In this document: in pieces, positions 20,092 to 38,231 of the stretch
How the letters are laid out: the number at the start of each line of letters is the position of its first letter
How positions within the stretch are numbered: position 1 is the first letter of the stretch
Source: Rhodococcus yunnanensis NBRC 103083
GTDB taxonomy: Bacteria; Actinomycetota; Actinomycetes; Mycobacteriales; Mycobacteriaceae
Reading direction: 5' to 3'
Length of the DNA: 64,000 nt
NCBI RefSeq assembly: GCF_001895005.1
Contig: NZ_BCXH01000001.1
Location: forward strand, 1 to 64,000
Translations under genes and position numbers: made by a program
Notes under the pieces: generated by a model
Databases searched by the model: none
What the model saw: the letters and a program-made list of their open reading frames with translations, nothing else
What the model was told of the DNA's origin: nothing

Positions 20092-20114
20092 AGCAGCGCG
20101 TTTGGCGGCTGGGC

Positions 20115-20699: not shown

Positions 20700-20715
20700 T
20701 CAAACGGTCGTTTGG
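20700..20715. promoter_or_regulatory. putative TetR operator before the cluster A regulator
   Basis: TCAAACGGTCGTTTGG is a near-perfect palindrome with 7-base arms about a 2-base centre, 55 bases before the tetR ATG. The same motif recurs at four other operon starts, with one further weak copy. It suggests autoregulation. The 315 bases from the IS end to the tetR gene hold nothing else I can identify. Confidence 0.65.
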
Positions 20716-20770: not shown

Positions 20771-21469
20771 ATGGATGACGAGATGGGGAGGAGTACGAGA
20801 AGGTTGACGAAAACCAACGACGGCAAGCGTGGGAGGGGGCGACCGCCGGCGAGTGACAAGACCAAGAAAAAGGACCTCGACGGAGCACGGTCGCGAGACA
20901 AGGAAGTGGTCGCTGCAGCAGTTCGCCTTTTCTACAGCAAGGGCTACGCCTCGACGTCGATGCAGGACATCGCGGACGAGTTGGGATTGCTGAAGGGCAG
21001 CCTTTACTACTACATCGACACGAAGGAGACCCTGCTCCGTAGGATCTTCGAGAGTTCGCATGACCAAGTCCAGGTGATCGCCGAGAAATACAAGCAGTCC
21101 GATGCGCCCGCGATGGACCGCTTCAGTGGGTTCTTGAACGAATACACGCTCTGGTATCTCGACAACATTCCCCGTGCGAGCCTCTTCGCGCGTGAATGGA
21201 GGCACGCCGGAGACGACTTGCGCGCTGTGATGGTCGAGCAGCGTCGCTACTACGATCACACGCTGCGCGTGCTGATAGTCGAATTGGCGGAGGACTATGA
21301 CCTTGGTTCCTCTGTCGACGCTCCGATGATGAGCAACTTCATCATGTCAGCAGTGTCGTCGGTGCCGGACTGGTTTCACTCGACGGGTTCACTCACGGCC
21401 GCCCAGGTTGCAACACGCTATGTGGATTACGCGACACGTGTGGTGCTGAACGGTGCGCCAGCGCTGTAG
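20771..21469 (+). CDS. TetR-family regulator of cluster A
   Basis: The 232-residue protein has a basic leader (RGRGRPPASDKTKKK), then the TetR HTH (AAVRLFYSKGYASTSMQDIA and LGLLKGSLYYYIDTKETLL) and a helical ligand domain of about 130 residues. ATG 20783 is an alternative start. The gene is first in cluster A and has its own terminator. The palindrome at 20700-20715 and its copies downstream make it the likely repressor of the cluster, released by a pathway intermediate, perhaps an acyl-CoA. That ligand is inferred. Confidence 0.85.
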   Translation: MDDEMGRSTRRLTKTNDGKRGRGRPPASDKTKKKDLDGARSRDKEVVAAAVRLFYSKGYASTSMQDIADELGLLKGSLYYYIDTKETLLRRIFESSHDQVQVIAEKYKQSDAPAMDRFSGFLNEYTLWYLDNIPRASLFAREWRHAGDDLRAVMVEQRRYYDHTLRVLIVELAEDYDLGSSVDAPMMSNFIMSAVSSVPDWFHSTGSLTAAQVATRYVDYATRVVLNGAPAL

Positions 21470-21644: not shown

Positions 21645-22346
21645 ATGGCAGTGAACAAGGTCGTCGGGTCTCTCGACGATGCGGTCGCCGGCATCTCGGA
21701 TGGGGCAACGTTGATGGTCAGCGGTTTCGGGCCACCGGGTCAGCCGTCAGCGCTCATCGATGCCGTACTCGACAGCGGTGCAAGCAATCTCACGATAATC
21801 AACAACAATGCAGGGGCCGGAGGGCGTGCGATCTCGGAGCTCTTCGCAGCCAAGCGGGTGCGCAAGGTCGTGTGTTCGTTCCCGAAAGCCATCGGATCGA
21901 CCGTGTTCGACGACCTCTATCGCGCGGGTGAGATCGAACTCGAGCTGGTGCCGCAGGGAACCCTGGCCGAGCGAATCCGCGCAGGCGGGGCCGGAATCAT
22001 GGGCTTCTACACGCCGACCGCGCACGGAACGGAATTGGCTGCAGGCAAGGAGACTCGTGTGTTCGGCGGTGTCGATTGTGTCCTCGAACTGCCCCTTCGC
22101 GCCGATTTCGCACTGGTGCGGGCCGAGGTCGGAGATCGGTACGGCAACCTCACCTATCGCAAGACGGGCCGAAACTTCGGTCCGCTCATGGCGGCCGCGG
22201 CAGATGTGACAGTCGCCGAAGTGTCTCGTCTGGTCCGTCCCGAAGTGATGGATCCGGAGACGACTGTTACGCCTGGAATCTACGTAGACCGACTGTTCGT
22301 GCTCGACGAGCGTTCGAGCACGTCTACCGAGGAGGAGTCTCGATGA
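21645..22346 (+). CDS. CoA-transferase subunit A, 3-oxoadipate (PcaI) type
   Basis: The 233 residues follow the PcaI/ScoA pattern: DGATLMVSGFGPPGQPSALI near the start (CoA-binding glycine region), NNNAGAGGRAISELF, KVVCSFPK, ELVPQGTLAERIRAGGAG and GDRYGNLTYRKTGRNFGPLM (pieces of conserved blocks). The protein transfers CoA, usually from succinyl-CoA, to a free acid. The partner subunit overlaps by 4 bases. It is near PcaI by eye, but no pca genes lie nearby, so the substrate is likely a pathway acid such as a dicarboxylate or oxo-acid. Start ATG 21645 has GGAAGG upstream. Confidence 0.85.
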   Translation: MAVNKVVGSLDDAVAGISDGATLMVSGFGPPGQPSALIDAVLDSGASNLTIINNNAGAGGRAISELFAAKRVRKVVCSFPKAIGSTVFDDLYRAGEIELELVPQGTLAERIRAGGAGIMGFYTPTAHGTELAAGKETRVFGGVDCVLELPLRADFALVRAEVGDRYGNLTYRKTGRNFGPLMAAAADVTVAEVSRLVRPEVMDPETTVTPGIYVDRLFVLDERSSTSTEEESR

Positions 22347-22996
22347 GTCGGTGGACCCGCGACGAGTTGGCCGCCCGTGTTGCCGCCGACATCCCGGACG
22401 GTTCCTACGTCAACTTGGGAATCGGCATGCCGACGATGGTGGCAGACCATGTACCAGCCGGTCGCGAACTCGTGTTCCACACCGAGAACGGGATGCTGGG
22501 AATGGGTCCTGCGGCTGTCGGCGACCAGATCGACGAGGATTTGATCAACGCCGGAAAGCTCTACGTAACAGAGACATCGGGCTCGTCCTACTTTCATCAC
22601 GCAGACTCTTTCGCGATGATCAGAGGTGGCCACATCGAATACTGCGTTATCGGCGCCTATCAGGTCGCTGTCGACGGCGACCTCGCGAACTGGCGAACGA
22701 ATTCCCCTGAGGTGATTCCGGGTGTCGGCGGCGCCATGGATCTCGCGGCGGGTGCCCAGAACGTCTTCGTGTGTATGGACCTGTTCACCAAGAGCGGTGA
22801 GTCGAAACTCGTCACGGATTGCGCGTACCCGCTCACCGGGCGTGGATGCGTGAACCGTGTCTACACTGACTACGGCATCTTCGAGCCGAAGGATGGCGGG
22901 TTCGCAGTAGTCGAACTCAGCGGTGCGGCGACCCTCGAGGAACTGCGAGAGCGCTGCTCTGTTCGTCTCGACGCCCCCAGCGGTGTCCACGCATAG
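22343..22996 (+). CDS. CoA-transferase subunit B, 3-oxoadipate (PcaJ) type
   Basis: The 217 residues have the family N-terminus (YVNLGIGMPTMVADHVPAG) and the catalytic Glu in FHTENGMLGMGP near residue 49, which forms the glutamyl-CoA thioester. IPGVGGAMDLAAGAQNVFV and KLVTDCAYPLTG are also typical. ATG 22343 has GGAGGAG 6 bases upstream and overlaps subunit A as ATGA. Both subunits together form the active heteromer. Confidence 0.87.
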   Translation: MSRWTRDELAARVAADIPDGSYVNLGIGMPTMVADHVPAGRELVFHTENGMLGMGPAAVGDQIDEDLINAGKLYVTETSGSSYFHHADSFAMIRGGHIEYCVIGAYQVAVDGDLANWRTNSPEVIPGVGGAMDLAAGAQNVFVCMDLFTKSGESKLVTDCAYPLTGRGCVNRVYTDYGIFEPKDGGFAVVELSGAATLEELRERCSVRLDAPSGVHA

Positions 22997-23149: not shown

Positions 23150-25150
23150 ATGAGTTTGGTGACGGTCGAGACGGTCGGCGACGTCGCGGTGTTGTCCATC
23201 GACAACCCTCCGGTCAATGCCGGTAACTCGGCGCAGCGGAGCGCGTTGTTCGATGCCATTGCCGTTCTCGGCGCCCGAACCGACGTGTCCGCGATCGTGA
23301 TCACCACGGCAGGTAGACACTTCTACGCCGGTTCCGATCTGCGTGAATTCGATCTTCCGCTGTCCGAACCTCAACTTCCGGCAGTGATCTCGGCGCTCGA
23401 TGGCTTGACGATTCCCGTCGTCGCGGCTGTTCGAGGGCTCGTTCTCGGCGGGGGGCTCGAACTCGCGCTGGGTTGCGACGCGCGAATCTCGACCCCGACA
23501 ACCGAACTCGGATTTCCCGAGGTCGGATTCGGAATCGTTCCCGGCGCCGGCGGCACCGTTCGGTCGGCACGGCTGATCGGTGTCGAGTCGGCGGCGGATC
23601 TCGTCACGACAGGCCGCCGAATCGGCGCAGCTGAAGCGGAGAAGATCGGTCTCGTCGATGCCGTTGTGCCCGATTCGGAGCTACTCGAACGAGCAGTCGC
23701 GTGGGCCGCGGGCCTGCGTAGTCGGCGACGACTCGTCGATGTTCCATCGTCGGCACCGTTCGCCGACCGTGCCGGGGTGACAGCAGGTCTGCCGCGCCGC
23801 CACCGACCGAACGTGCGTATCGCCGCTGAATTGGTCGTCGACGGCATCGAGCTGTCGGCAACCGACGCGCTCGCAGTCGAGCGAAAGACTTTCGACGACC
23901 TGCGGATCACCGACGAATCGAACAGCCTTCGTTACTTGTTCTTCGCTCGCCAGGCTGCGGCGAAGGATCTGAGGGGCTCGTCCGGTCCCTCCCGCCTCGA
24001 ACGAGTCGGAGTCATCGGCGCAGGCACGATGGGTGCAGGCCTGGCCGCGTTGTTCGCCGAGCACGGATATCGTGTCGTCGTCGTCGACGGCAACACCGAT
24101 GCTCTGGCACGAATCACCGAAGATTCGATTACGACATCCACCTTGCTCGACGCCTGTGCCGAGTGCGACCTGGTGATCGAGGCGGTGTTCGAGGACATGG
24201 CCGTCAAGCAGGATCTGTTGCAGAACTTGGAGAAGACCGTCCGCGACGACGCTGTTCTCGCGTCGAACACCTCGTATCTCGACCTCGACGAGATGGCCGA
24301 GAGAATGCTGCATCCGAACCGGTTCGCGGGATTGCACTTCTTCAATCCTGCACGCCGAAATCCGCTGGTCGAAGTGATTCCTGCAGCGAAGACCGACGAA
24401 CGGACTCGGTCCGCTCTCGGTTCACTAGCATCGGCAATGGGCAAGGTAGCGATCGTCAGCGGCGTCGGCGATGGATTCGTCGGCAATCGCGTCTATGCCG
24501 ACTATCGGGCGCAGGCCGAAATTCTGGTCGAGGACGGAGCGACTCCGGCCCAGGTCGATCAGGCCATGGGAGAATTCGGAATGGCCGTCGGACCGTTCGC
24601 CGTCGCAGATATGTCGGGCCTCGACATCGCGTGGTCGCGGCGCAAGCGACTTGCCCCTGATCGAGATCCCGATTGTCGTTATGTGCATATCGCGGACAGG
24701 CTGTGCGAAGCAGGTCGTTTGGGCAAGAAGGTGGGCGCCGGCTGGTATGCGTACCCGGACGGCGCAGGTCGGGGCATCGATGATCCCGCAGTGAACGCGA
24801 TCATCGATGAATGTCGTGCCGCAGCAGGATCGACGCCCCGCGCGATCGACGCAGACGAAATACGGATGCGCATCCTGGGCGCGATGGTGGCAGGCGCGGC
24901 CGCGGTGCTCGCCAGCGGTGTGGCTCGTAGGGCCTCCGATGTCGACGTTGCACTCACCGAAGGTTTCGCATTCCCGAGGCACCGCGGCGGTCCCGTCAAG
25001 GCGTTCTCCCGACTGAACGAGTCCGAGCAGGTCCGAGCGCTGGCGGCAGTGCATTCCTCGGACCCACACGGCTACCCGATCTTGGCGGAGTCCGGTGACG
25101 GTGTTGTGCCGTCGGCCGTCCGCCGACTTCTGGACGAGGCCACACGATGA
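23150..25150 (+). CDS. fused enoyl-CoA hydratase / 3-hydroxyacyl-CoA dehydrogenase
   Basis: This bifunctional beta-oxidation enzyme has 666 residues. The N-terminal crotonase domain (1-190) has the oxyanion motif HFYAGSDL, both catalytic Glu positions (VLGGGLELALGCD and FPEVGFGIVPGAGG) and so can hydrate. The NAD-binding dehydrogenase begins near residue 285 with VGVIGAGTMGAGLA, followed by SNTSYLDLDEMA, the catalytic His in GLHFFNPARRNPLVEV and a C-terminal dimer domain. No thiolase is fused. It belongs with the nearby CoA-transferase, dehydrogenase and thiolase genes as the beta-oxidation core of cluster A. Confidence 0.9.
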   Translation: MSLVTVETVGDVAVLSIDNPPVNAGNSAQRSALFDAIAVLGARTDVSAIVITTAGRHFYAGSDLREFDLPLSEPQLPAVISALDGLTIPVVAAVRGLVLGGGLELALGCDARISTPTTELGFPEVGFGIVPGAGGTVRSARLIGVESAADLVTTGRRIGAAEAEKIGLVDAVVPDSELLERAVAWAAGLRSRRRLVDVPSSAPFADRAGVTAGLPRRHRPNVRIAAELVVDGIELSATDALAVERKTFDDLRITDESNSLRYLFFARQAAAKDLRGSSGPSRLERVGVIGAGTMGAGLAALFAEHGYRVVVVDGNTDALARITEDSITTSTLLDACAECDLVIEAVFEDMAVKQDLLQNLEKTVRDDAVLASNTSYLDLDEMAERMLHPNRFAGLHFFNPARRNPLVEVIPAAKTDERTRSALGSLASAMGKVAIVSGVGDGFVGNRVYADYRAQAEILVEDGATPAQVDQAMGEFGMAVGPFAVADMSGLDIAWSRRKRLAPDRDPDCRYVHIADRLCEAGRLGKKVGAGWYAYPDGAGRGIDDPAVNAIIDECRAAAGSTPRAIDADEIRMRILGAMVAGAAAVLASGVARRASDVDVALTEGFAFPRHRGGPVKAFSRLNESEQVRALAAVHSSDPHGYPILAESGDGVVPSAVRRLLDEATR

Positions 25151-26013
25151 CAACCACCGAGGAAGGGCTCAGCGGCGTGAATGCTGGAAAGAATTGGGGC
25201 GGCGGTACCTGGGAGGGCGACTTCACCTGGCCGACTATGTCGAATCGCGTGTACGACTTGGCAGTTCGCCTCGAGCACGGGATGACACACCACGTCGCGC
25301 ACCCTCCGTACTCCTACACATTGGTGAAGAAGCACGGAAGCCACAACTATCCGGGTGGGATCTCGTCGGCCATGGAACTGGTGACGATTCCGGGTCACGG
25401 AGGCACACACGTGGATGCTCCCGCGCACATCTCCAAGGATGGCTTGGTGTTCGGGGGAGTCGGCGTCGACGACCACCAGACCTGGACCGACGGAGTCGAT
25501 GTCGGTTCGGTCGAAGAATTGCCACCCCTCGTCGGTCCCGGACATCTCGTCGACGGCGAAGTTCTCTTCGGTCGTGAAATGACGCACCGCGACGGATTCG
25601 GAGCGGATGAACTCGATCGATGGTTCGCCGACAGGCCTGCACCGGAACGCGGTTCCGTGGTGCTCTTCCGGACCGGGTTGATGAAGCACTGGGACGACTC
25701 GGAGCGCTACCTCGGCACGGGAGTCGGGGTTCCAGGAGTCAGCCTGTCCGGTGCGAAGTGGTTGACCGATCGAGGCGTTCTCGCCGTCGGTGCGGATACC
25801 GCTAGCTTCGAACACAAACCGGAGTGGACAGTTCCGGCTCTCGACGTACATGTTCATCTGCTGGTCGAGCACGGCACGCCGATCATGGAGTCCGTGCAAT
25901 TGGAGCTGTTGGCACAAGACCGGATATACGACGGGTTCCATTTCGTCGCTGCCGCCCTGCGAATCAAGGGTGGTACCGGTTCACCGCTGCGTCCGCTGGC
26001 TTTCGTCAGCTGA
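25147..26013 (+). CDS. cyclase-family metal-dependent hydrolase (kynurenine-formamidase fold), copy 1
   Basis: The 288-residue protein belongs to the cyclase family Pfam PF04199. The metal motif HxGTHxDxPxH is complete as HGGTHVDAPAH at about residues 79-89. Later typical parts are PERGSVVLFRTG, GVPGVSLSGAKWL and DVHVHLLVEHGTPIMES. Members hydrolyse amides, lactams or cyclic compounds with Mn or Zn. In this cluster a role in opening a ring or lactone is plausible but unproven. ATG 25147 overlaps the previous stop. Confidence 0.85.
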   Translation: MTTTEEGLSGVNAGKNWGGGTWEGDFTWPTMSNRVYDLAVRLEHGMTHHVAHPPYSYTLVKKHGSHNYPGGISSAMELVTIPGHGGTHVDAPAHISKDGLVFGGVGVDDHQTWTDGVDVGSVEELPPLVGPGHLVDGEVLFGREMTHRDGFGADELDRWFADRPAPERGSVVLFRTGLMKHWDDSERYLGTGVGVPGVSLSGAKWLTDRGVLAVGADTASFEHKPEWTVPALDVHVHLLVEHGTPIMESVQLELLAQDRIYDGFHFVAAALRIKGGTGSPLRPLAFVS

Positions 26014-26058: not shown

Positions 26059-26074
26059 CCAAACGAACGTTTGA
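26059..26074. promoter_or_regulatory. putative TetR operator before the carboxylase operon
   Basis: CCAAACGAACGTTTGA is an almost exact palindrome with an AA centre. It ends 11 bases before the ATG and just before the GGAG ribosome site, a position where a bound repressor would block transcription or initiation. Confidence 0.7.
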
Positions 26075-26085
26075 AGGAGCGGTAA

Positions 26086-26610
26086 ATGAGCGTTTTACCC
26101 AACGACATCAAGCTGATTCTCGATACCCTGCAGGATTCGGAATTCGACCAGGCCGAGGTCGTGATCGGCGACGTGCGCATCTCGGTCGCACGCAACGGAC
26201 TGCAGCTGGCCGGTGCCGCGGCACCGGTGGCAGCGGTGGCGGAACCCGTTCGCGCCGTGGTCGCCGAGCAGCATGAACAGCCTGCAGCGGTTGTCGCCGC
26301 TGCGCCTGCACAGCCCGCTTCGCTTGCGACAGCGTCACCGGCGACCGGTGTTGCGGCCGCCGAGAACGCGCACGTCGTCGAGTCACCCAGCGTCGGAGTC
26401 TTCTGGCGCGCCTCAGCGCCCGGCGCCGCGTCGTTCGTCGAGATCGGGCAGACGGTGGCGGCGGACGACACCGTGGGCATCGTCGAGGTCATGAAGTTGA
26501 TGACGAACATCGCAGCCGGAGTCGACGGTGTCGTCACGGCGATTCATACCGAGAACGCTGTCGCCGTCGAGTTCGGAACCCCGCTGGTCACCATCGAGCC
26601 GAAGGCATAG
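26086..26610 (+). CDS. biotin carboxyl carrier protein of an unassigned carboxylase
   Basis: The 174 residues have an N-terminal helical part, an Ala/Pro-rich linker (about 45-100) and a biotinyl domain with VEVMKLM, where Lys 137 is the biotin site. This layout is that of AccB-type carriers. It is followed 2 bases later by a biotin carboxylase and then by a carboxyltransferase, so all three enzyme parts are together. The AGGAG ribosome site abuts the operator. Confidence 0.92.
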   Translation: MSVLPNDIKLILDTLQDSEFDQAEVVIGDVRISVARNGLQLAGAAAPVAAVAEPVRAVVAEQHEQPAAVVAAAPAQPASLATASPATGVAAAENAHVVESPSVGVFWRASAPGAASFVEIGQTVAADDTVGIVEVMKLMTNIAAGVDGVVTAIHTENAVAVEFGTPLVTIEPKA

Positions 26611-26612
26611 CC

Positions 26613-28019
26613 GTGGACGGCCGAACAATAGACCGAGTCCTCGTCGCCAACCGGGGTGAGATCGCGGTTCGCATCATCCGTGCGTGCTTCGACGAGGGCA
26701 TCGAAAGCGTGCTCGCCTGCTCGGCGGCGGATACCGAAACACTTGCCGCCCGGTTGGCGGACAAGGTGGTCGTCATCGGACCCGCCGCAGCGGCAGAGAG
26801 CTACCTCGACATTCCGCGTGTCGTACAAGCCGCGATCGCGACCGGGTGCGACGCCCTGCACCCCGGTTACGGATTCCTGTCCGAGCGACCCGAACTCGTC
26901 GACGCCTGCCAGGAGAACGGCATCGTCTACATCGGACCGCCTGCCGACATCATGCGGCGGTCGGGTTCCAAGCTGGGCGCGCGTGCTGTTGCCGACGAGG
27001 TCGGTATTCCCACCGGTGCAGGCTCCGGCGGACTCGCGAGCGTGGAAGACGCCGTCGAGGCGGCTCGACGCCTGGGATTTCCGCTGTTGCTCAAGGCATC
27101 TGCGGGCGGAGGCGGCCGGGGTATGACGATTCTGCGGACCGAGGACGAGGTGAAGGACGGCTACGTCCGTTCGAGCCTGGAAGCAGAGAGGGCATTCGGC
27201 GACGGGACGGTGTACGTCGAACCCTACGTCGAGCGCGCCAGGCACGTCGAGGTGCAGATTCTCGCCGACACGTACGGAAACGTGTGCCACCTGGGTGAGC
27301 GTGATTGCTCGACTCAACGCCGCTACCAGAAGGTCATCGAGGAAGCCCCGGCCGTCGGTTTGCCGGACAGCCTCATCGGCGACATTCGTGCTGCGGCAGT
27401 GAAATTGTGCGCGGCGCTCGACTACGTGGGAGCAGGCACGGTCGAGTTTCTCGTGGACGCGGACCGGAACCGATTCGTGTTCCTCGAGGTCAACGCTCGC
27501 GTGCAGGTCGAGCATCCGATCTCCGAGGCGATCACCGGGATCGACATCGTTCGTGAGCAGCTGCGTATCGCCAGCGGACGCCCTTTGTCGTTCCAGCAGA
27601 GCGACGTCCACACCACGGGACACGCGATCGAGTGCCGCCTCAATGCCGAGGACAGCACACGAAATTTCGCGCCCACGCCCGGAACGATCACCGAGTGGAC
27701 GGTCCCCGGCGGCGAGGGGATCCGCGTGGACACCTTCGTGCACGCCGGAGCCGTCATCTCGCCGTGGTACGACTCGCTGATCGCGAAGATCATCGTGCAC
27801 GCGGCCACTCGTGATCAAGCGATCGAACGTATGCGAGCTGTGCTCGCCAGGACTCGCGTGGGCGGCGTAGCGACGACTGCACCGATCCACGATGCCATCC
27901 TCGCCCACCCGGACTTCGCGAAAGGTCCGGTGACGACCAAGTGGCTGGAGGACGTCTTCCTTCCCGAATGGGACGCCGACACAGCCACGCTGCCCGCTTC
28001 CGGGCGCACAGCGTCCTAG
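26613..28019 (+). CDS. biotin carboxylase subunit
   Basis: It carboxylates the carrier's biotin with ATP and bicarbonate. The 468 residues have the N-domain VLVANRGEIAVRIIRACF, the glycine-rich ATP-grasp loop KASAGGGGRGM, ERDCSTQRRYQK, the catalytic FLEVNARVQVEHPISEAI and the C-terminal AEDSTRNFAPTPG. The GTG start at 26613 follows the carrier stop by 2 bases. It is AccC-like and by itself says nothing about the final substrate. Confidence 0.93.
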   Translation: MDGRTIDRVLVANRGEIAVRIIRACFDEGIESVLACSAADTETLAARLADKVVVIGPAAAAESYLDIPRVVQAAIATGCDALHPGYGFLSERPELVDACQENGIVYIGPPADIMRRSGSKLGARAVADEVGIPTGAGSGGLASVEDAVEAARRLGFPLLLKASAGGGGRGMTILRTEDEVKDGYVRSSLEAERAFGDGTVYVEPYVERARHVEVQILADTYGNVCHLGERDCSTQRRYQKVIEEAPAVGLPDSLIGDIRAAAVKLCAALDYVGAGTVEFLVDADRNRFVFLEVNARVQVEHPISEAITGIDIVREQLRIASGRPLSFQQSDVHTTGHAIECRLNAEDSTRNFAPTPGTITEWTVPGGEGIRVDTFVHAGAVISPWYDSLIAKIIVHAATRDQAIERMRAVLARTRVGGVATTAPIHDAILAHPDFAKGPVTTKWLEDVFLPEWDADTATLPASGRTAS

Positions 28020-28036
28020 ATCATCGAAGGAAAATC

Positions 28037-29500
28037 ATGCACATCGATTTCGTCGAACAGAGTCTTCGCGACGGTCAGCAGAGCCTGTGGGGCATGCGTT
28101 TGCGCGCCTACGAGGCGGCAGGCGCGCTGCCGTACCTGAAGGACGCCGGCTACCGCACGATCGACCTCACCGGCGCGGGCATGTTCACGGTGTTGCTCCG
28201 TGAGTACGCCGACGACCCATGGGCAACACTGGATTTCCTCGTTGCAGGTTTGAAGGGCAACGAGTTGCGATCGGGTCTGCGGACGCTCAGCTGTGTCGGC
28301 TTCGCCCCGACGCCGCAGGTGATCATGGACCTGTGGATCCAGACGCTCATCAAGCATGGCGTCACGAGCTTCTGGCTGTACGACTGCCTGTACGACATGC
28401 CGTTGATGAAGCACATGGTCGACGTCGTCACGCAGGCGGGTGGCCAGGCCGTTCCAGCAATCATGTACGGCCTCACCGACGTTCACGACGACGTCTACTT
28501 CGCCGATCGCGCCCGGGAGATGGCGTCGTGGACCGGAGTCGAATCGATCTACTTCGAAGATGCTGCTGGAGTGCTGAAGCCGGAGCGCGCGCGGACGTTG
28601 CTCCCAGCCATCCGTGAGGCGACCGGAACCATCCCCCTCGAACTCCATTGCCACAACACGACGAATCTTGCGCAGCACAACTACATCGTCGGAGTGGAGA
28701 GTGGCTTCACCCGGTTGCACACTGCCTCGAGGCCCATGGCCAACGGACCATCGTTGCCTTCGACCGAGGCGATGGTTACGGCGATCGAACATATGGGTTT
28801 CACACACTCGATCGACACGTCGACCTTCGAACCCGTCGCCGCGCACTTCGAGCAGGTTGCACGCGACGCCGGCCGCTCGACGGGCGTTCCAGCCGAGTAC
28901 GACCCTCGGATGTACGACCACCAGTTGCCCGGTGGAATGACGGGAACGCTGATCAATCAGCTCGAGCGCCATGGATTGGGGCATCGGTTCCCCGCGGTGC
29001 TCGAGGCGATCCCGAAGGTTCGAGTCGAACTCGGGTCGCCGATCATGGCGACGCCGTTCTCGCAGTTCGTCGGTGTTCAGGCAGTGCTGAACATCATCAC
29101 CGGTGATCCCTATTCGATGGTGTCCGACGAAGTGGTGCACTACGTTCTCGGCCACTACGGACCGGTCCCCGCGCCCGTCGCACCCGATGTGCTCGACAAG
29201 ATCCTGTCGAGTCCTCGGGCCAAACAACTGCAGGATTGGACCAGGCCGGAACCGACGCTCGACGAGATCCGAGCGCAGTTCTCGCCGGGAATCTCCGACG
29301 AGGAACTGCTCATCCGCTTCATGATGTCGGACGAGGAGGTAGACGCCATGCTGGCAAAAGGCCCACTGCGGACGGATCGACGCCGCAGCACGAACAAAGT
29401 CGTCGAGTCGGTCGTCGAGCTGCTCGGCGATTCCCGGGGCAGCAAGTCGTTCTCGGTGTCGACTCCCGAGTTCAGCATCGCCACATCGAGAGGTGCATGA
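28037..29500 (+). CDS. carboxyltransferase subunit, transcarboxylase-5S/pyruvate-carboxylase type, with changed Lys ligand
   Basis: The 487 residues form an HMGL-like TIM barrel plus C-terminal domain related to transcarboxylase 5S, oxaloacetate decarboxylase alpha and PycB. Metal ligands Asp 12 (LRDGQQS) and His 204/His 206 (ELHCHNTTN) are kept, as are LPGGMTGTLINQL and SQFVGVQAVLNIITG. The carbamylated Lys of the family (Lys 184 in 5S, motif LKDMAALLKP) is Glu 174 here (FEDAAGVLKP). The enzyme therefore is either a carboxylase with a Glu ligand or has new chemistry. Known relatives act on pyruvate or oxaloacetate; the substrate here is unknown. Confidence 0.85.
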   Translation: MHIDFVEQSLRDGQQSLWGMRLRAYEAAGALPYLKDAGYRTIDLTGAGMFTVLLREYADDPWATLDFLVAGLKGNELRSGLRTLSCVGFAPTPQVIMDLWIQTLIKHGVTSFWLYDCLYDMPLMKHMVDVVTQAGGQAVPAIMYGLTDVHDDVYFADRAREMASWTGVESIYFEDAAGVLKPERARTLLPAIREATGTIPLELHCHNTTNLAQHNYIVGVESGFTRLHTASRPMANGPSLPSTEAMVTAIEHMGFTHSIDTSTFEPVAAHFEQVARDAGRSTGVPAEYDPRMYDHQLPGGMTGTLINQLERHGLGHRFPAVLEAIPKVRVELGSPIMATPFSQFVGVQAVLNIITGDPYSMVSDEVVHYVLGHYGPVPAPVAPDVLDKILSSPRAKQLQDWTRPEPTLDEIRAQFSPGISDEELLIRFMMSDEEVDAMLAKGPLRTDRRRSTNKVVESVVELLGDSRGSKSFSVSTPEFSIATSRGA

Positions 29501-30351
29501 TGTCCGAGCTCGGCAACGCCGTCGAGGTCGAGGTGGATGGTCCGGTGACCTGGTTGACGCTGAACAGGCCCGAACGTTTGAACGCACTCGACGACAGGCT
29601 TCTGAACGAACTGGGTGACAGGCTGGACGACAGCGCGAAGACGGACGCGCGAGTGGTCGTCATTCGGGGCGCTGGTCGTGCCTTCTGTGCGGGATACGAC
29701 ATCGCACCGGATTCGTCCGAGGTCGGCTATGCGGCAGAGCGCTCACCGGTCGAGGACAGGGACAGGTTGCTCGGCAACATCGAACTGTTCACGCGAATAT
29801 GGCGACACCCGCAACCGGTCATCGCATCGGTGCACGGGCACTGCGTCGCCGGTGGCGCGCAGCTGGCCTCGCTGTGCGACATCACGATCGTGGCCGAGGA
29901 TGCGAACATCATGACTTCGCCCGCTCTCGCACTCGGCGGAGGATACCTCTCGCCGCTCTGGGTGCACAGGGTCGGCGGTCAGCGCGCCAAACTCATGTCG
30001 ATGGATGCCGGACGACGCATCACCGGTTCGACGGCGGCCGAGTGGGGGTGGGCCGCCGATGCGGTCCCAGCGGCAGAGCTGCACGACTACGTCCGTCGTA
30101 CGGCGCACTCGATCGCGCGAACGGCAGGCTCGCTCCTGAGACTCAAGAAGGAGGCGGTCAATCGCGCGGTGGAGCTGGACGGGCTGCTCACCTACGCGAG
30201 GATAGGCGCGGAAACCGATGCGTTGCTGCATATGACCCCCGAGGTCAAGCACACGCAATCGCGCATCAAGGACATCGGGCTCAAGGCCGCTATCGCCGAG
30301 TTCAACGCCGATTTCGAGGCGCAGTTCGGCAGTGTTCGGGGTGCCAGGTGA
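29497..30351 (+). CDS. crotonase-superfamily protein lacking the hydratase Glu
   Basis: The 284 residues have the crotonase fold: LNRPERLNALDD, the oxyanion motif RAFCAGYDI and GHCVAGGAQLASLCD. Hydratases have Glu where this protein has Gln (GGAQLA), and the second Glu of a PExxLG-type motif is also absent (PALALGGGYLSPLW). It is thus unlikely to hydrate an enoyl-CoA. Crotonase relatives with other chemistry include hydrolases, isomerases, decarboxylases and ring-cleaving enzymes. It overlaps both neighbours by 4 bases, between the carboxyltransferase and the second cyclase. Confidence 0.8.
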   Translation: MMSELGNAVEVEVDGPVTWLTLNRPERLNALDDRLLNELGDRLDDSAKTDARVVVIRGAGRAFCAGYDIAPDSSEVGYAAERSPVEDRDRLLGNIELFTRIWRHPQPVIASVHGHCVAGGAQLASLCDITIVAEDANIMTSPALALGGGYLSPLWVHRVGGQRAKLMSMDAGRRITGSTAAEWGWAADAVPAAELHDYVRRTAHSIARTAGSLLRLKKEAVNRAVELDGLLTYARIGAETDALLHMTPEVKHTQSRIKDIGLKAAIAEFNADFEAQFGSVRGAR

Positions 30352-31262
30352 CCGTCGACCTGCCCACGTACGACGAGCTTCCCGAACTCGGTGATCTGGG
30401 GGTTCGGCACTCGTGGGGGTTGCTACCTCACCACACCGGCACGCTGGAGCGGATCGGCCCGAAACAGGTGCGGCTCGCCTCTGAATCGGTGACACTTGGA
30501 ACGGCGTTCTCGCTCAGCGAGCCGATGACCACGTTCGGCAATCCTCTGTTCGGTCGAGATGCTCTGTCGCACAGAGTGATCGAGGCTGGTCGAAATGAAC
30601 TCGAGGATGTTCTCGACAGTTTCAATCCGCAGGCCTACTCACAGATCGATGGCCTTGCACATGTGCGTGCCCGCGAATTCGGTTTCTACGGAGGGCATGT
30701 CGACGCTGCAGAAGCGAGGGAAGAACTCGGTATGCATCACTGGGCCACGCGTGCCATCGTCGGACGAGGCGTGTTGCTCGACGTTCACCGGTCCAGGCTC
30801 GCACGGGGTGTCGACGACGATCCGACGGCAGGCACGCCCATCACCCCGACGGAACTCGATACGGTGGCCAACGAACAGGGTGTGGTCGTCGAGCGCGGCG
30901 ACATTCTCCTCGTTCGGACCGGCTGGCTGAGTGCGTTTCGCCAGCGACCGGCTGAGCCGGTGCGCACCTGGAACGGTCTTCACGCGGGAGAAGATACAGC
31001 GAGGTATCTGTGGAATCGCGGGGTTTCGCTACTCGGAGCGGACAACCCGGCGGTCGAGGATTCGCCCGGTTCTCGTGAGGCAGGATCACTGCATCGACGC
31101 TTGCTTCCTGCACTCGGTTTGTCGTTGATGGAGTTGTTGAATCTCGACGATCTAGCGAGTGCGTGTAGTGATCACGAACGCTGGAGCTTCCTGTTCACCG
31201 CGGCACCGCTGCCGCTTCACGGTGGCGTCAGTTCGCCGGCGAACGCTCTCGCAATCCTGTAG
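30348..31262 (+). CDS. cyclase-family protein, copy 2, divergent metal motif
   Basis: The 304 residues are of the same cyclase family as copy 1 but in a distant branch. In place of HxGTHxDxPxH it has AYSQIDGLAHVR near residue 97, then RGVLLDV, ERGDILLVRTGW and LGADNPAVEDSP. Asp and one His remain. It is likely a different hydrolase rather than a duplicate. It ends the carboxylase operon; GTG 30348 overlaps the crotonase stop. Confidence 0.8.
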   Translation: MTVDLPTYDELPELGDLGVRHSWGLLPHHTGTLERIGPKQVRLASESVTLGTAFSLSEPMTTFGNPLFGRDALSHRVIEAGRNELEDVLDSFNPQAYSQIDGLAHVRAREFGFYGGHVDAAEAREELGMHHWATRAIVGRGVLLDVHRSRLARGVDDDPTAGTPITPTELDTVANEQGVVVERGDILLVRTGWLSAFRQRPAEPVRTWNGLHAGEDTARYLWNRGVSLLGADNPAVEDSPGSREAGSLHRRLLPALGLSLMELLNLDDLASACSDHERWSFLFTAAPLPLHGGVSSPANALAIL

Positions 31263-31298: not shown

Positions 31299-31314
31299 TC
31301 AACCGGACGTTTGG
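31299..31314. promoter_or_regulatory. putative TetR operator before the acyl-CoA dehydrogenase pair
   Basis: TCAACCGGACGTTTGG matches the cluster A palindrome with one change in the left arm and lies 10 bases before the ATG. Confidence 0.62.
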
Positions 31315-31324
31315 TGAAATTAAA

Positions 31325-32467
31325 ATGACTGCACAGATACTTCATACCGGGCGCGACATCGAGCAGTTCGCGGCCCAGGCCGAAAAGTGGCTCGCCGGTG
31401 CCGTTCCCGAGCGGTGGAAGAACAACCGGGGCTCGCTGAGCGGTCACGACATGGACGAACTACGTCGCGAATGGGATTTCATCCTGTGGGAAGGGGGCTA
31501 CTCGGGATTGTCGATCGCCAAGGAGTACGGCGGTCAGGGACTCGGTCTGGCCGAAGAGATCATCTTCCACGTGCTCGCCGGTGGCGCGCAGGCTCCCGAT
31601 GGTCTGGCGCGCGTCGGAAAGTCCCTTGTCACCCCCATGCTGATCAAGAGCGGGAGCGAGCAGCAGAGGGCGGCGTACATCCCGTCGATCATGAACGGCA
31701 CGGACGTCTGGTGCCAGGGATTCTCGGAGCCGGAAGCAGGTTCGGACATGGCCAACATTCAGATGCGTGCACGTCGCGTGGACGGTGGGTACCTGCTCAA
31801 CGGCACGAAGACATGGACGTCGTTCGCGCAGCATGCGCGTCGTTGTTTCGTGCTCGCGCAGACGCAGCCCGACGCCGGTAGATACCGAAATCTGTCGATG
31901 CTGTTGGTGGACATGAAATCTCCCGGAGTGTCGATCAGTGATATCAGGCAGATATCGGGTGCGGTCCACTTCGCCGAAACGCGGTTCGAGAACGTGTTCG
32001 TCTCCGACGACGATCGGGTCGGCGACGACGGGGACGGATGGGGCGTTGCGATGCGCGTACTCGGCGACGAGCGCGGGGGAATCGAGACAGCAGCACGCTA
32101 CGTCGAGATCCGATCCGATGTCGATGCGCTCGTAGCAGCCCTCGGCGACAACCCCCGGTACGCCGACCGAATTCGTGATCTCGACATTCGAACCGAAGTG
32201 GTGCGATGGCAGTTGGCGAAGATCGCAGATCTGGAGGCCGCAGGCGACGAGAAGAGGTTCGCGCGTGCGGGTGGCGTCATGAAGCTCATGTGGAGTGAGC
32301 TGTGGCAGGACATCGCCCGCCTCGGCGTTCTCGAAGTGCCGCCCGGCCGACAAGAGCAACATTGGGCGTATCAGTACCTGGAGTCCCGCGCGGTCACGAT
32401 CTACGGCGGTTCCAGCGAAATTCAGCGAAACATCCTGTCCGAACGAGTGTTGGGCCTACCTCGATGA
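31325..32467 (+). CDS. acyl-CoA dehydrogenase, large subunit of a likely two-subunit enzyme
   Basis: The 380 residues have all three ACAD domains: the FAD/substrate motif CQGFSEPEAGSDMANIQ, LNGTKTWTSFAQHA, and a C-terminal IYGGSSEIQRNIL. The usual MCAD catalytic Glu (IYEGTS) is Gly here. A Glu in helix G (VLGDERGGIE) is at the place used by isovaleryl-CoA dehydrogenase, so it may be the base. The next gene is a shorter ACAD overlapping by 4 bases, like alpha2beta2 FadE pairs of steroid side-chain catabolism. Confidence 0.88.
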   Translation: MTAQILHTGRDIEQFAAQAEKWLAGAVPERWKNNRGSLSGHDMDELRREWDFILWEGGYSGLSIAKEYGGQGLGLAEEIIFHVLAGGAQAPDGLARVGKSLVTPMLIKSGSEQQRAAYIPSIMNGTDVWCQGFSEPEAGSDMANIQMRARRVDGGYLLNGTKTWTSFAQHARRCFVLAQTQPDAGRYRNLSMLLVDMKSPGVSISDIRQISGAVHFAETRFENVFVSDDDRVGDDGDGWGVAMRVLGDERGGIETAARYVEIRSDVDALVAALGDNPRYADRIRDLDIRTEVVRWQLAKIADLEAAGDEKRFARAGGVMKLMWSELWQDIARLGVLEVPPGRQEQHWAYQYLESRAVTIYGGSSEIQRNILSERVLGLPR

Positions 32468-33375
32468 GCACTGCAAGCACACAGTACGCAATGTCCACCC
32501 TGCCGACCGAGTTCGGTTCGACCGGCGCCGACGGAATCCGGGATCTCGTGCAGCGAGCTACTTCTCGCGCACCAATCGCCGCATACGCCGAGGAGGGCAT
32601 TCCGCCGGTGTCGTGGAGCGCTATCGCCGACGCCGGGTGGGACGAGGCAGGAATCGTCGAGGACGGCGACGGAGCAACCACGAGAGACCTCGTCGAGATC
32701 GCGCGTGAATGGGGATATGGTTGCATTCCTCAACCGCTGCTGCCGACGTTGCTCGCGAAGCGGTTGTCCCGCGTCGCACGATCGGCGGCCGGACCTGTGA
32801 CGTTCGCTCTTTCGATGGGTGAGAAGTCGCTGGTGCCGTTCGGGCAGATCGAGGCGATCTCCGTCGTCACCGAGTTGGGAACCGACGGCGGTGAACTGCA
32901 TCCGGTATCGGAGGGCGAGCCCGACGGTCTCGACTTGATCGCACGTGGGCTTCGTTCGACCGCGTCGCAGACCACCACGTTGACCACCCTCGCGGCACGA
33001 GAGGTCGCTCTGGTGTTCGCGGCCGAAGCGCTCGGTGGAGCGGAGCGGCTGCTCTCTGATTCGATCGAGTTCGCAAAGCAGCGAACGCAATTCGGACGTC
33101 CCGTGGGGTCGTTCCAGGCCGTCAAGCACAAGATCGCCGACGCGGCCATCGCCGTCGAGGCCGCCGAGACCGCCCTGATCTGGGGGTCTCAGCGGCAGGA
33201 GAACGCATTCCGAGCATCGGTGTTCGCGACCGACCGATGCGTGGATGCCGCAGAGATCGCCGTGCAGGTGCACGGTGGCCTCGGATTCACATGGGAAGCG
33301 GGTCTGCACTTCCCGTTTCGAAAGCTCCTCTCGGCGCACCGTGTCGCCGCGTCGTTGGAGCACGATCATGGCTGA
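32464..33375 (+). CDS. acyl-CoA dehydrogenase-like small subunit
   Basis: At 303 residues it is shorter than a full ACAD. The N-terminal and middle parts are poorly conserved and the usual TExxxGSD motif is absent, but the C-terminal domain is clear (FAKQRTQFGRPVGSFQAVKH and VQVHGGLGFTWEAGLHF). Such proteins form heterotetramers with a full subunit, giving half-occupied FAD sites for bulky or ring-bearing acyl-CoAs. Start ATG overlaps the large-subunit stop; its own end overlaps the thiolase by 8 bases. Confidence 0.83.
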   Translation: MSTASTQYAMSTLPTEFGSTGADGIRDLVQRATSRAPIAAYAEEGIPPVSWSAIADAGWDEAGIVEDGDGATTRDLVEIAREWGYGCIPQPLLPTLLAKRLSRVARSAAGPVTFALSMGEKSLVPFGQIEAISVVTELGTDGGELHPVSEGEPDGLDLIARGLRSTASQTTTLTTLAAREVALVFAAEALGGAERLLSDSIEFAKQRTQFGRPVGSFQAVKHKIADAAIAVEAAETALIWGSQRQENAFRASVFATDRCVDAAEIAVQVHGGLGFTWEAGLHFPFRKLLSAHRVAASLEHDHG

Positions 33376-34561
33376 GGCGATCATTCTCGGAAGCCGTCGT
33401 ACCGCGATCGGCCGCGCGTACAAGGGTTCGCTCGTAGCGACGCGGCCCGACGACATGTTGGCCGACGTCACACGCGCACTCCTGGGCTCGATTCCCGATC
33501 TGGATCCGACTCGGATCGACGAGTTCCTGTTGGGGTGCAGCCTTGCATCCGGCGAGCAGGGCGGAAACCTGGGCAGGGTGGTTCCGGTGATGCTCGGGCT
33601 CGACGGTGTGCCCGGTTCGACGGTCAACCGGTATTGCGCCTCCAGCATGCAGACCACCCGCTCGGCGCACCACGCGATCAGGAACGGGGACGGAGCCGTC
33701 TATCTCTCGATGGGGCTCGAGGCCGTCAGTCGAATCGGTTCGCGTGGGCCGGATCCGGTGGAGGACGAGCGTCACCCGATGTTCCGTGGTCTGGTGCCCT
33801 CGTCGCCCTGGAGCGACCCGCGCACGCACGGTGCTGTTCCCGACGTCTTCGTAGGGATGGGGTTGACCGCGGAGAACGTTGCTGATCTCCACTCCGTAAG
33901 CCGTCTCGAAATGGACGAGTTCGCCGTCCGCAGCCACGAACTTGCGATAGCGGCCCGAGACTCGGGGTTCTGGGACGACGAGATCGTTCCCGTCGAGCGA
34001 GCCGATGGGTCGACGTTCGACAGGGATGAGGGCCCGAGAGCTGGATCGTCGATCGAAGCTCTGGCTGGTCTGAAGCCTGCTTTTCGGGAGAACGGCCGTG
34101 TGACTGCCGGAAACTCGTGCCCGCTCAACGACGGTGCCGCTGGCCTCGTGATCGTCGACGAGACGGTCGCGTCCGAGATCGACTCTCCGTTGAAGGCGCG
34201 GATCGTCAGTACTGCCGTTCATGCTCTCTCGCCCGAGATCATGGGTATCGCGACGGTCGGAGCCGCGCGGCGAGCGTTGCACCGCGCGCAGCTGTCGATC
34301 GACGACATCGGCGTCGTCGAGATCAATGAGGCGTTCGCTGCGATGGTGGTGCCTACCTACCGCGAACTGGGTGTCCCGCTGGAGAAGGTCAATCCCTTCG
34401 GCGGAGCTCTGGCTCTCGGACACTCGTTCGGGATGTCCGGTGCACGCATCACCGGAACGCTCCTGCGGGGAATGCGTTCCAGAGGAGCGCGTTACGGGTT
34501 GCAGACGATGTGTGTGGCCGGCGGTCAGGGAATGGCGATGGTCGTCGAGCTGCTCGAGTGA
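33368..34561 (+). CDS. thiolase (acetyl-CoA acyltransferase)
   Basis: The 397 residues carry the nucleophile Cys 90 (VNRYCASSMQT), NEAFA, GHSFGMSGAR in place of the common GHPxGxSG, and the second Cys in MCVAGGQGMA. It cleaves a 3-oxoacyl-CoA to acetyl-CoA (or another unit) and a shorter acyl-CoA. It closes the beta-oxidation set of cluster A. The start ATG overlaps the small ACAD subunit. Confidence 0.9.
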   Translation: MAEAIILGSRRTAIGRAYKGSLVATRPDDMLADVTRALLGSIPDLDPTRIDEFLLGCSLASGEQGGNLGRVVPVMLGLDGVPGSTVNRYCASSMQTTRSAHHAIRNGDGAVYLSMGLEAVSRIGSRGPDPVEDERHPMFRGLVPSSPWSDPRTHGAVPDVFVGMGLTAENVADLHSVSRLEMDEFAVRSHELAIAARDSGFWDDEIVPVERADGSTFDRDEGPRAGSSIEALAGLKPAFRENGRVTAGNSCPLNDGAAGLVIVDETVASEIDSPLKARIVSTAVHALSPEIMGIATVGAARRALHRAQLSIDDIGVVEINEAFAAMVVPTYRELGVPLEKVNPFGGALALGHSFGMSGARITGTLLRGMRSRGARYGLQTMCVAGGQGMAMVVELLE

Positions 34562-34610: not shown

Positions 34611-34626
34611 TCAAACGAACGTTTGA
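34611..34626. promoter_or_regulatory. putative TetR operator before the monooxygenase operon
   Basis: TCAAACGAACGTTTGA has perfect 7-base arms and is the best example of the motif. It lies 16 bases before the ATG, next to the ribosome site AAAAGGA. Confidence 0.72.
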
Positions 34627-36277: not shown

Positions 36278-37113
36278 TGGGTCGTTTCGACGGCAAGGTC
36301 GCGTTGGTGACTGGCGCGGCGCGCGGCCAGGGCCGTAGCCATGCCGTGCGCTTGGCCGCGGAAGGCGCCGCCATCGTCGCGGTTGACCTGTGTCGCGATG
36401 TGTCGACAACCGACTACGCACTGGGAACCGAAGAGGATCTCGCCGAAACTGCGCGTGCGGTGGAAGCCGAAGGCGGACGAATCCTCACGAAGGTGGGGGA
36501 CACCAGGGTGCAGACCGATCTCGATTCGGCAGTTGCGGCGGGGTTGTCGCGATTCGGCTCTGTCGATATCGCGGTGGCCAACGCCGGCATCGTGAGCTGG
36601 GCACCGGTCCACGAGATCTCGGATGCACAGTGGACCGAAATGATCGACATCAACCTCACCGGTACCTGGCGGACCATCAAAGCCGTCGTCCCTGCGATGC
36701 TCGAGCGCAAGAGTGGCAGCATCGTCATCGTCAACTCCGGTGCCGGACTCAGTGGGCCGAACAATCTGGCGCACTATGCTGCGGCGAAGCATGGGTTGGT
36801 TGGGCTCATGCGTTCGGCGTCGAACGAATTGAGTCCCGAGGGAATTCGTGTCAACAGTGTGCATCCGAGCCAGGTCGACACTCCGATGATCATGCACGAC
36901 AGCCTTTTCGGTCTGTTCCGCCCCGACCTGGAGAAGCCGACCAAGGACGACATCGTCGGTGTCTCGCAACGGCTGCACACCATACCCGTGCCGTGGGTGG
37001 AACCGGTCGACGTCTCGCACGCAGTGTTGTTCCTGGCGTCCGACGACGCGCGATACATCACCGGGACAAGCCTTCCCGTGGATGCGGGCGGATCGATCAA
37101 GACGTCGTACTGA
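36277..37113 (+). CDS. mycofactocin-coupled short-chain dehydrogenase
   Basis: The 278 residues show GKVALVTGAARGQGRS, the catalytic YAAAK, and the family-specific insertion after the second strand (VDLCRDVSTTDY, then GTEEDLAETARAVEAEGG). This insertion marks SDRs with tightly bound NAD that pass electrons to mycofactocin; carveol dehydrogenase of R. erythropolis is of this type. It should oxidise a secondary alcohol to the ketone used by the preceding monooxygenase. The ATG overlaps that gene's stop by one base. The mycofactocin maturation genes are not in the window. Confidence 0.87.
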   Translation: MGRFDGKVALVTGAARGQGRSHAVRLAAEGAAIVAVDLCRDVSTTDYALGTEEDLAETARAVEAEGGRILTKVGDTRVQTDLDSAVAAGLSRFGSVDIAVANAGIVSWAPVHEISDAQWTEMIDINLTGTWRTIKAVVPAMLERKSGSIVIVNSGAGLSGPNNLAHYAAAKHGLVGLMRSASNELSPEGIRVNSVHPSQVDTPMIMHDSLFGLFRPDLEKPTKDDIVGVSQRLHTIPVPWVEPVDVSHAVLFLASDDARYITGTSLPVDAGGSIKTSY

Positions 37114-38127: not shown

Positions 38128-38143
38128 CCAAACGGTTGTTTGA
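38128..38143. promoter_or_regulatory. putative TetR operator before the dehydrogenase/transporter operon
   Basis: CCAAACGGTTGTTTGA matches the cluster A motif with one change in the right arm. It lies about 100 bases before the alcohol dehydrogenase start, so it would act at the promoter. Confidence 0.6.
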
Positions 38144-38231
38144 AAAATACAGTTCCTGAGTATGACGTCAGACACAGCGACGTCGGTTCGAGACGTCGCT
38201 AACTGATGTCCAATCCCTAGTGAGGTGCGTA

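Follow-up and report, generated by a model that had tools for sequence, protein, structure and literature searches.

A biotin-dependent carboxylase with glutamate in place of the carbamylated lysine in a putative catabolic operon of Rhodococcus yunnanensis

The carboxylase and its metal site

The first 64,000 nucleotides of contig NZ_BCXH01000001.1 of Rhodococcus yunnanensis NBRC 103083 (this whole stretch will be referred to as the window) encode the subunits of a biotin-dependent carboxylase at 26086-29500. An initial annotation, made from the sequence alone, had placed a carrier with Lys137, a biotin carboxylase and a 5S/PycB-type carboxyltransferase in one operon, and all three, including a biotinylatable carrier, were found encoded together as follows.

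26086..26610, plus strand: biotin carboxyl carrier protein (BCCP), biotinyl motif EVMKLM with Lys137 (codon 26494-26496)
26613..28019, plus strand: biotin carboxylase subunit (BC) with the expected motifs (including GGGGRGM and EVNARVQVEH) and domains
28037..29500, plus strand: 5S/PycB-type carboxyltransferase (CT), 487 aa; PF02436 94.5 bits, PF00682 45.2 bits
28070..28072, plus strand: codon of CT Asp12, predicted metal ligand
28556..28558, plus strand: codon GAA of CT Glu174, at the place of the carbamylated Lys
28646..28654, plus strand: codons of CT His204, Cys205 and His206, both His being predicted metal ligands

Judged by its sequence, the enzyme is a clear biotin-dependent carboxylase of the 5S/PycB type, except that one textbook feature of transcarboxylase 5S and pyruvate carboxylase, the carbamylated Lys, is absent. 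The interval 26086..29500 holds the carboxylase itself; the gene set extends further than first proposed, from about 21645 to 41816.

The CT aligned by phmmer to 5KS8_C, 2NX9_A and 1RQB/1U5J/1S3H over about 384-393 query residues with E values of 5e-64 to 2e-49. It has the HMGL-like barrel and the PYC_OADA domain of the 5S/PycB/OadA type, and Asp12 and the motif LHCHNT (His204, His206) match the Asp and His-x-His ligands of the solved relatives. The column of Glu174, however, is occupied by Lys in all five structure alignments (KDMA; KDIA in 1U5J). The claimed exchange of Lys for Glu with Asp and both His kept was thus borne out, and a misplacement of Glu174 in the alignment, considered in the initial annotation, was not seen. 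As R11, D12, Q15, R82, H204, H206, T339 and S342 are all retained, the active site does not appear degenerate. Glu174 is present in 37/37 rows of the well supported clade around the window CT, down to about 52% identity, and its column is one of 102 invariant columns among 485 scored in that clade; a sequencing error or a lone mutation was ruled out on this basis. From these alignments we infer that Glu174 may ligate the metal in place of carbamyl-Lys. Parts of PMC2881705 describe Lys178 of OadA as carbamylated and even propose it as a CO2 carrier.

Phylogeny and distribution of carboxyltransferases without the lysine

An eight-sequence profile scan of contigs, covering one genome each for 84,980 species, returned 266 relatives; the top 80, in 78 loci, were retained. 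Adding the window and 12 loci from plasmid records brought the set to 100 CT open reading frames (ORFs; loci are numbered with L, genomes with G). The Lys is absent from 92 of them, a count that does not show how common Lys and Lys-less forms are relative to each other overall, since the set was picked by similarity to Lys-less CTs. Positions 12/174/204/206 read DEHH in 48 ORFs, DYHN in 28, DGHH and DKHH in eight each, DEQH in four, DYHH in two, DAHH in one and -EHH in one partial ORF. The eight Lys CTs come from the plasmid-record loci L033-L040, and every CT of L041-L118 is Lys-less. According to the record titles, the loci come from Actinomycetota, from alpha-, beta- and gammaproteobacteria and from one Bacillus. 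Two metagenome-assembled genome (MAG) records titled Klebsiella pneumoniae (L100, L108) carry Tyr-type operons otherwise found in other proteobacteria; these titles may be wrong.

The Lys-less type is rare in the class sample, where 8 of 394 genomes gave 17 matches (Glu 9, Gly 4 and Tyr 3 among the 16 listed), and among 30 loci of the highest-scoring matches in the phylum sample (396 genomes), 29 had Lys and only that of the window's own genome lacked it; as a maximum of four candidates was scored per genome, these counts are lower bounds. Within the genus, 37 genomes were searched (the own and 36 others), and a CT of more than 60% identity was found in the window's own genome only. The same genome carries on contig 14 a second Glu-type CT, 42% identical to the window CT and with the motif ELEDAAGLLTP, a type also present in the genus genomes G003 and G028. 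Its operon encodes a phosphoenolpyruvate (PEP)-utilizer mobile-domain protein, a 525-aa protein of unknown type, an AMP ligase, a further protein of about 203 aa, likewise of unknown type, a pyruvate phosphate dikinase (PPDK)-type protein, BCCP, BC, CT and a thiolase-like protein. Two Rhodococcus plasmid records (L029, L030) hold CTs 84-85% identical to that of the window; both show the order BCCP-CT-ACAD1-ACAD2 (ACAD, acyl-CoA dehydrogenase), BC not being in the stretch read, and the set in L029 lies amid annotated insertion sequence (IS) elements.

A FastTree tree of 112 CTs, built without columns 174, 176, 204 and 206, joined every one of the main set's 95 Lys-less rows in one clade with a support of 100, and the Tyr-Asn, Gly and Gln-His groups were each single. 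IQ-TREE with 54 rows (34 Lys-less, 20 Lys) recovered this split at 100/99 support, and each of its 200 bootstrap trees contained it, so that the Glu variant lies inside a well supported clade, as the initial annotation had asked of such a tree. On the IQ-TREE tree the states of residue 174 need four changes, and these fit one exchange of Lys for Glu followed by replacements of that Glu by Tyr, by Gly and by Ala; in the Tyr branch, the data fit a change from HxH to HxN that arose later than Glu to Tyr. A CT-like ORF on a Sulfitobacter dubius plasmid (L123), with Asn12 and Ser174, sits on a long branch outside the Lys-less clade in the FastTree tree and is absent from the IQ-TREE set; it adjoins two carrier-like proteins and a BC. 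The Lys may therefore have been lost elsewhere too.

The residues around position 174 are tightly coupled. Ala176 and His206 accompany Glu in 55/55 rows and Glu176 accompanies Gly or Ala in 10/10, while Thr176 and Asn206 are found in 28 of the 30 Tyr rows; the remaining two, both from L090 and the first to branch, have Thr176 and His206. These are counts of rows and not of independent events, as each form arose once or a few times on the tree. Among the 92 Lys-less ORFs, R11, D12, Q15, R82, T339 and S342 are conserved throughout, apart from L032, which has Ala342, and L065, a partial ORF that lacks its start. Because of this coupling and of the retained active-site residues, the pattern looks like a rebuilding of the site rather than its decay. 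If the Lys was indeed lost and the site rebuilt, this enzyme family would not depend on lysine carbamate as a CO2 relay. Three coupled forms and a living intermediate (L090) would make the role of the Lys, as ligand or relay, directly testable with native enzymes. A natural clade without the carbamylated Lys also bears on the proposal of Lys178 as CO2 carrier in OadA, as given in parts of PMC2881705.

Operon, operator sites and gene neighbourhoods

All genes from 21645 to 41816 lie on the plus strand, several with 4-base overlaps. The genes flanking the carboxylase are the following.

20771..21469, plus strand: TetR-family regulator; PF00440, PF17932
21645..22346, plus strand: 3-oxoacid CoA-transferase subunit A (PcaI/ScoA family); TIGR02429, 310 bits against a cut-off of 128.5
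22343..22996, plus strand: 3-oxoacid CoA-transferase subunit B (PcaJ/ScoB family); TIGR02428, 272.7 bits against a cut-off of 243.55; motif TENGMLGMG
23150..25150, plus strand: FadB-like enoyl-CoA hydratase/3-hydroxyacyl-CoA dehydrogenase fusion
25147..26013, plus strand: cyclase-family metal-dependent hydrolase 1 (GHGGTHVDAPAH); PF04199
29497..30351, plus strand: crotonase-fold protein
30348..31262, plus strand: cyclase-family hydrolase 2; PF04199
31325..32467, plus strand: acyl-CoA dehydrogenase ACAD1; best NCBIfam model pimC_large, 189 bits, under the cut-off of 623.85
32464..33375, plus strand: acyl-CoA dehydrogenase ACAD2; best NCBIfam model IpdE2, 93 bits, under the cut-off of 450
33368..34561, plus strand: acetyl-CoA C-acyltransferase (thiolase), Cys and His motifs present
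34643..36277, plus strand: Baeyer-Villiger monooxygenase; closest solved relatives are phenylacetone, steroid and cyclohexanone monooxygenases
36277..37113, plus strand: short-chain dehydrogenase/reductase (SDR) oxidoreductase, start inferred
37149..37943, plus strand: SDR oxidoreductase
38220..39173, plus strand: alcohol-dehydrogenase-like oxidoreductase
39166..41816, plus strand: sugar-type ABC importer (ATPase 39166-40734, permease 40731-41816)

The crotonase and the two cyclase-family hydrolases claimed for the operon are thus present. With both subunits above the TIGR02428 and TIGR02429 cut-offs, the CoA-transferase is assigned to class I, and it has the ENG motif of this class. The cyclases belong to different subgroups which are co-conserved in the window subclade, and opening of a lactone, a cyclic amide or a dione was considered for them. 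Cyclase 1 gave only weak matches in the PDB, to an uncharacterised protein and isatin hydrolase, and ACAD1 gave no PDB match at E 1e-30. Transposase-like ORFs, read as IS3 type, lie on the minus strand at 19240-20435, just upstream of the TetR gene; together with the occurrence of the CT in one of 37 genus members, they suggest horizontal gain.

A palindrome of the TetR-operator type, TCAAACGnnCGTTTGA, has five sites with up to two mismatches, all of them before genes.

20700..20715, no strand: predicted operator palindrome TCAAACGnnCGTTTGA, 1 mismatch, upstream of the TetR gene
26059..26074, no strand: predicted operator palindrome, 1 mismatch, 11 bases before BCCP
31299..31314, no strand: predicted operator palindrome, 2 mismatches, before ACAD1
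34611..34626, no strand: predicted operator palindrome, perfect, before the Baeyer-Villiger monooxygenase
38128..38143, no strand: predicted operator palindrome, 2 mismatches, before the dehydrogenase and transporter genes

Five sites compare with 0.28 expected, and 0/100 shuffles reached five; the pattern was taken from one of the five, which is therefore not independent. The palindrome search found no site before the CoA-transferase or the FadB-like gene of the window. With the same tolerance, the palindrome ends 13, 18 and 16 bases before BCCP in L029, L041 and L043, respectively, and no palindrome was found directly before BCCP in the other window-type loci that have this gene (4/11 with a site, window included). 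It also precedes an electron transfer flavoprotein gene in L042 and L047, and further matches fall inside genes in L030, L032, L048 and L059. The predicted sites would tie together the regulator, the carboxylase, the dehydrogenases, the monooxygenase and the importer. Because sites precede both, monooxygenase and importer probably share this regulon in this genome; they lie outside the conserved core, and a monooxygenase of at least 50% identity was found only in L065.

Neighbouring genes were counted around CTs with full flanks; the models were made from window-like or cluster sequences and may miss distant homologues, ORFs were called mechanically, and some loci are not independent, sharing a contig or being near-identical (L048/L049, L051/L055, L044/L058). 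Window-type CTs (n = 13, window included) are accompanied by BCCP in 11 cases, by BC, the FadB-like fusion, ACAD1 and ACAD2 in 9 each, by the crotonase and cyclase 1 in 8 each, by cyclase 2 in 7 and by an AMP ligase in 5. The other Glu CTs (n = 15) have an AMP ligase in 13 cases, BCCP and BC in 10 and a PPDK-type protein in 7, cyclases in 2 and 4, and a crotonase in 2. Tyr CTs (n = 12) stand near PPDK (12), AMP ligase (11) and thiolase (10), with no cyclase and no window-type crotonase, and Gly/Ala CTs (n = 6) near thiolase and AMP ligase (5 each); for the Tyr and Gly/Ala CTs with full flanks, a cyclase/crotonase link was found in 0/18. The expected tie of the Glu clade to cyclase and crotonase genes hence stands for the window subclade (cyclases 8 and 7/13, crotonase 8/13) and is much weaker for the other Glu CTs (2, 4 and 2/15), and the wording that all Glu variants are so linked was dropped. 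Genes of the tyrosine-phosphatase family occur near 5/6 Gly/Ala, 6/15 other Glu and 2/13 window-type CTs.

Many Tyr-type and some Glu-type operons encode a PPDK-like protein whose match is limited to the nucleotide and phosphohistidine domains, without the pyruvate barrel. The PEP-utilizer mobile domain is on a protein of its own in these operons, which also encode two conserved proteins, one of 525 and one of about 203 aa (examples of these parts are L031:4575-6149, L103:9362-9970 and L094:1635-3401). The latter two gave no Pfam match, and the 525-aa protein gave no PDB match either. This set is possibly a new substrate kinase. A hydantoinase A/B pair whose B protein has an acetone-carboxylase-gamma domain lies near Glu-type CTs at L048:13467-17990 (minus strand), and hydantoinase clusters 36/41 are also found in L041, L049, L061, L063 and L064.

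In the 14 genomes searched for both subunits, 25 Lys-less CTs were found against 16 BCs with more than 500 bits to the window BC (52-73% identity); the next BCs were below this value (G808, 486 bits, 50%; G810, 452 bits, 52%). Such a BC lies directly beside 14 of the 25 CTs. Saccharopolyspora spinosa, Pseudonocardia kujensis and Acrocarpospora catenulata each have two CTs and one BC above 500 bits, and the MAG G818 (L057) has five CTs and one, with the reservation that gaps in MAGs could hide genes. Since CTs outnumber cognate BCs in several genomes, these counts suggest that CT subunits share one BC-BCCP, that is, a modular enzyme. In the acyl-CoA carboxylases of actinobacteria, CT subunits share BC-BCCP.

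Proposed function and relation to known systems

With moderate confidence, we favour an ATP-dependent carboxylase of the ketone type, whose 3-oxoacid product would be activated with CoA and cleaved, with Glu174 in place of carbamyl-Lys as metal ligand. BC would load CO2 from bicarbonate, with ATP, onto the biotin of BCCP, and CT would transfer this CO2 to a ketone-type intermediate of catabolism, at the alpha carbon, so that a 3-oxoacid forms. The co-encoded CoA-transferase, or an AMP-forming ligase in related clusters, would activate this acid, the crotonase or the thiolase would cleave it, and the PimC/IpdE2-like dehydrogenases and the FadB-like enzyme would continue with beta-oxidation. Asp12, His204 and His206 would hold the metal and the carboxylate of Glu174 would stand in for the carbamate, so that no lysine carbamylation would be needed. 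Both the ketone substrate and the order of steps are inferred. The recurring combination of carboxylase, CoA-activating enzyme and thiolase would meet the needs of a route from ketone to 3-oxoacid. Enoyl-CoA hydratases use two catalytic Glu, and cleaving crotonases of the BadI/MenB/EchA20 type are established. As both hydratase Glu appear to be absent from the crotonase of the window-type group in an alignment read by eye, this protein may by analogy cleave rather than hydrate. An alicyclic ketone is the favoured substrate class because of the PimC- and IpdE2-like dehydrogenases and of a monooxygenase near the phenylacetone, steroid and cyclohexanone types. We also entertain, tentatively and as possible rather than probable, a wider scheme: the Lys would have been lost once and the site rebuilt in at least three ways (Glu174; Gly/Ala174 with Glu176; Tyr174 with Asn206), several substrate-specific CTs would operate on one shared BC-BCCP, and the window branch would represent a new, probably alicyclic, ketone route of carboxylation, CoA ester formation and cleavage.

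Several observations weigh against the ketone carboxylase with Glu174 as ligand. Among the 13 window-type CTs, CoA-transferase B is near 6, A near 5 and the thiolase near 5. The window-type locus of Amycolatopsis echigonensis (L041:2104-5728) has PEP-utilizing kinase-like and tyrosine-phosphatase-family genes upstream of BCCP, so that phosphorylated substrates are conceivable; the haloacid dehalogenase (HAD) model was found near 0/13 window-type CTs and kinase models near 1/13 (L041), the window itself having neither. Gly, Ala or Tyr at position 174 in sister clades means that the family can do without a carboxylate there, and in a group of four Glu members (L075-L078) the first His is lost (His204 to Gln, QxH) and Glu is kept. 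Both latter findings are what would be expected if Asp, His and His with water or substrate sufficed, Glu174 being no ligand and residue 174 tuning the pocket for the substrate. We regard this as somewhat unlikely, as against it stand the invariance of Glu across the whole window clade and the constant gain of Glu two residues on in the Gly/Ala members, as if a carboxylate were needed. Arg82 occupies the column that we take to be the pyruvate-binding Arg of pyruvate carboxylase; its retention in all 95 Lys-less CTs of the tree, with Gln15 also kept and Thr at 82 in 5 Hpe-type rows, could mean an anionic, 2-oxo-acid-like substrate. The substrate of the carboxylase would then be a 2-oxo acid or some other keto compound with a carboxylate, such as a keto acid from ring degradation, and not a neutral ketone, and no kinase gene that could add a negative charge was found in the window operon. 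This seems unlikely to us in view of the Ala that replaces the Met of KDMA (EDAAG; Pro, Ala or Val in other non-pyruvate-type Lys relatives), of a 3-oxoacid CoA-transferase and thiolase instead of anaplerotic genes, and of an ordinary pyruvate carboxylase frame in the same genome (1139 aa, C1:916430-917500, Lys-type motif IKDMAGLLRA). A genome without another pyruvate carboxylase, named in the initial annotation as pointing to an ordinary enzyme, was thus not seen.

Operation in reverse, as a biotin-dependent decarboxylase or transcarboxylase, is suggested by OadA and transcarboxylase 5S being among the nearest solved structures; we consider it very improbable, as a complete ATP-grasp BC adjoins CT and is often kept (9/13 window-type loci) and neither a membrane beta subunit nor a 12S-type subunit is among the annotated operon genes. 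That the substitution is neutral, in an otherwise ordinary pyruvate carboxylase of the PycB type or an oxaloacetate decarboxylase, is hardly credible. PycB/OadA models are the best curated family matches, but the scores stay far under the cut-offs (301.5 of 402 bits for PycB, 273.2 of 718 and 263.8 of 756.5; for pyruvate carboxylase also 155.4 of 965), KDMA is missing, and the strict residue coupling in a separate clade and the second, ordinary frame point the same way. Identity with pyruvate carboxylase or OadA was rejected on the model scores, the clade and this frame.

The sister group of the Lys-less clade (96/89) is a Lys-bearing set with KDP motifs. Among its members are loci flanked by genes for PEP-utilizing kinase subunits or for a Tm-1-like ATP-binding protein, by one for a HAD hydrolase and sometimes by an acetoacetate-CoA-ligase-like gene (among six Lys CTs, HAD 4, PEP-utilizing kinase models 2, Tm-1-like 2). 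By gene order, these loci correspond to the Hpe/Acv gene set as given in parts of PMC9618137 and PMC13101465. This gene set is known from HpeCBA, the phosphophenylethanone carboxylase of Rhodococcus rhodochrous GD02, which according to parts of PMC9618137 was assayed and carboxylates phospho-aryl methyl ketones. The initial suggestion of an undescribed system stands in part: the sister group is of the type of HpeCBA, an assayed ketone carboxylase, and no account of a Lys-less clade was found in searches of the open-licence literature. Among the titles and abstracts listed there, none deals with a 5S-type CT without the Lys, subscription literature being mostly outside this scope, and the parts of PMC7888143 (ketones in sulfate reducers) consulted contain nothing on such an enzyme. 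The Lys-less clade would point to a set of unassigned carboxylases of actinobacteria and proteobacteria that are likely to act on ketones; their regulator, transporter and downstream genes are mapped, which is useful for substrate finding and for C-C bond-forming CO2 fixation.

Transcarboxylase 5S (1RQB), PycB (5KS8) and OadA (2NX9) belong to the same family over about 390 residues and share Asp and His-x-His with the window CT, but have Lys and KDMA instead of Glu and EDAA, and the operon differs. The Pim operon of pimelate-type degradation and IpdE1E2 of cholesterol ring degradation have in common with the window the FadB-like fusion, PimC- or IpdE2-like dehydrogenases, thiolase and crotonase, with model scores under the cut-offs; to our knowledge, neither pathway begins with a biotin-dependent carboxylase. 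Closest in design are HpeCBA, XccBCA of Aromatoleum aromaticum and the Acv carboxylase of Sphingobium SYK-6, which like the window enzyme consist of BCCP, BC and a 5S-type CT encoded in a catabolic operon and which form a 3-oxoacid for CoA activation and cleavage, as proposed here. The Hpe/Acv-type loci of our tree, picked by gene order and not by comparison with the GD02, EbN1 or SYK-6 sequences, form the sister group outside which the window CT lies; they keep the Lys in a KDP motif, with Thr for Arg82 in 5 rows, whereas the window has Glu174 and Arg82. They carry a kinase or Tm-1-like gene and a HAD hydrolase, which are absent from the window operon, and this operon in turn, unlike them, encodes a CoA-transferase, cyclases and PimC/IpdE2-like dehydrogenases.

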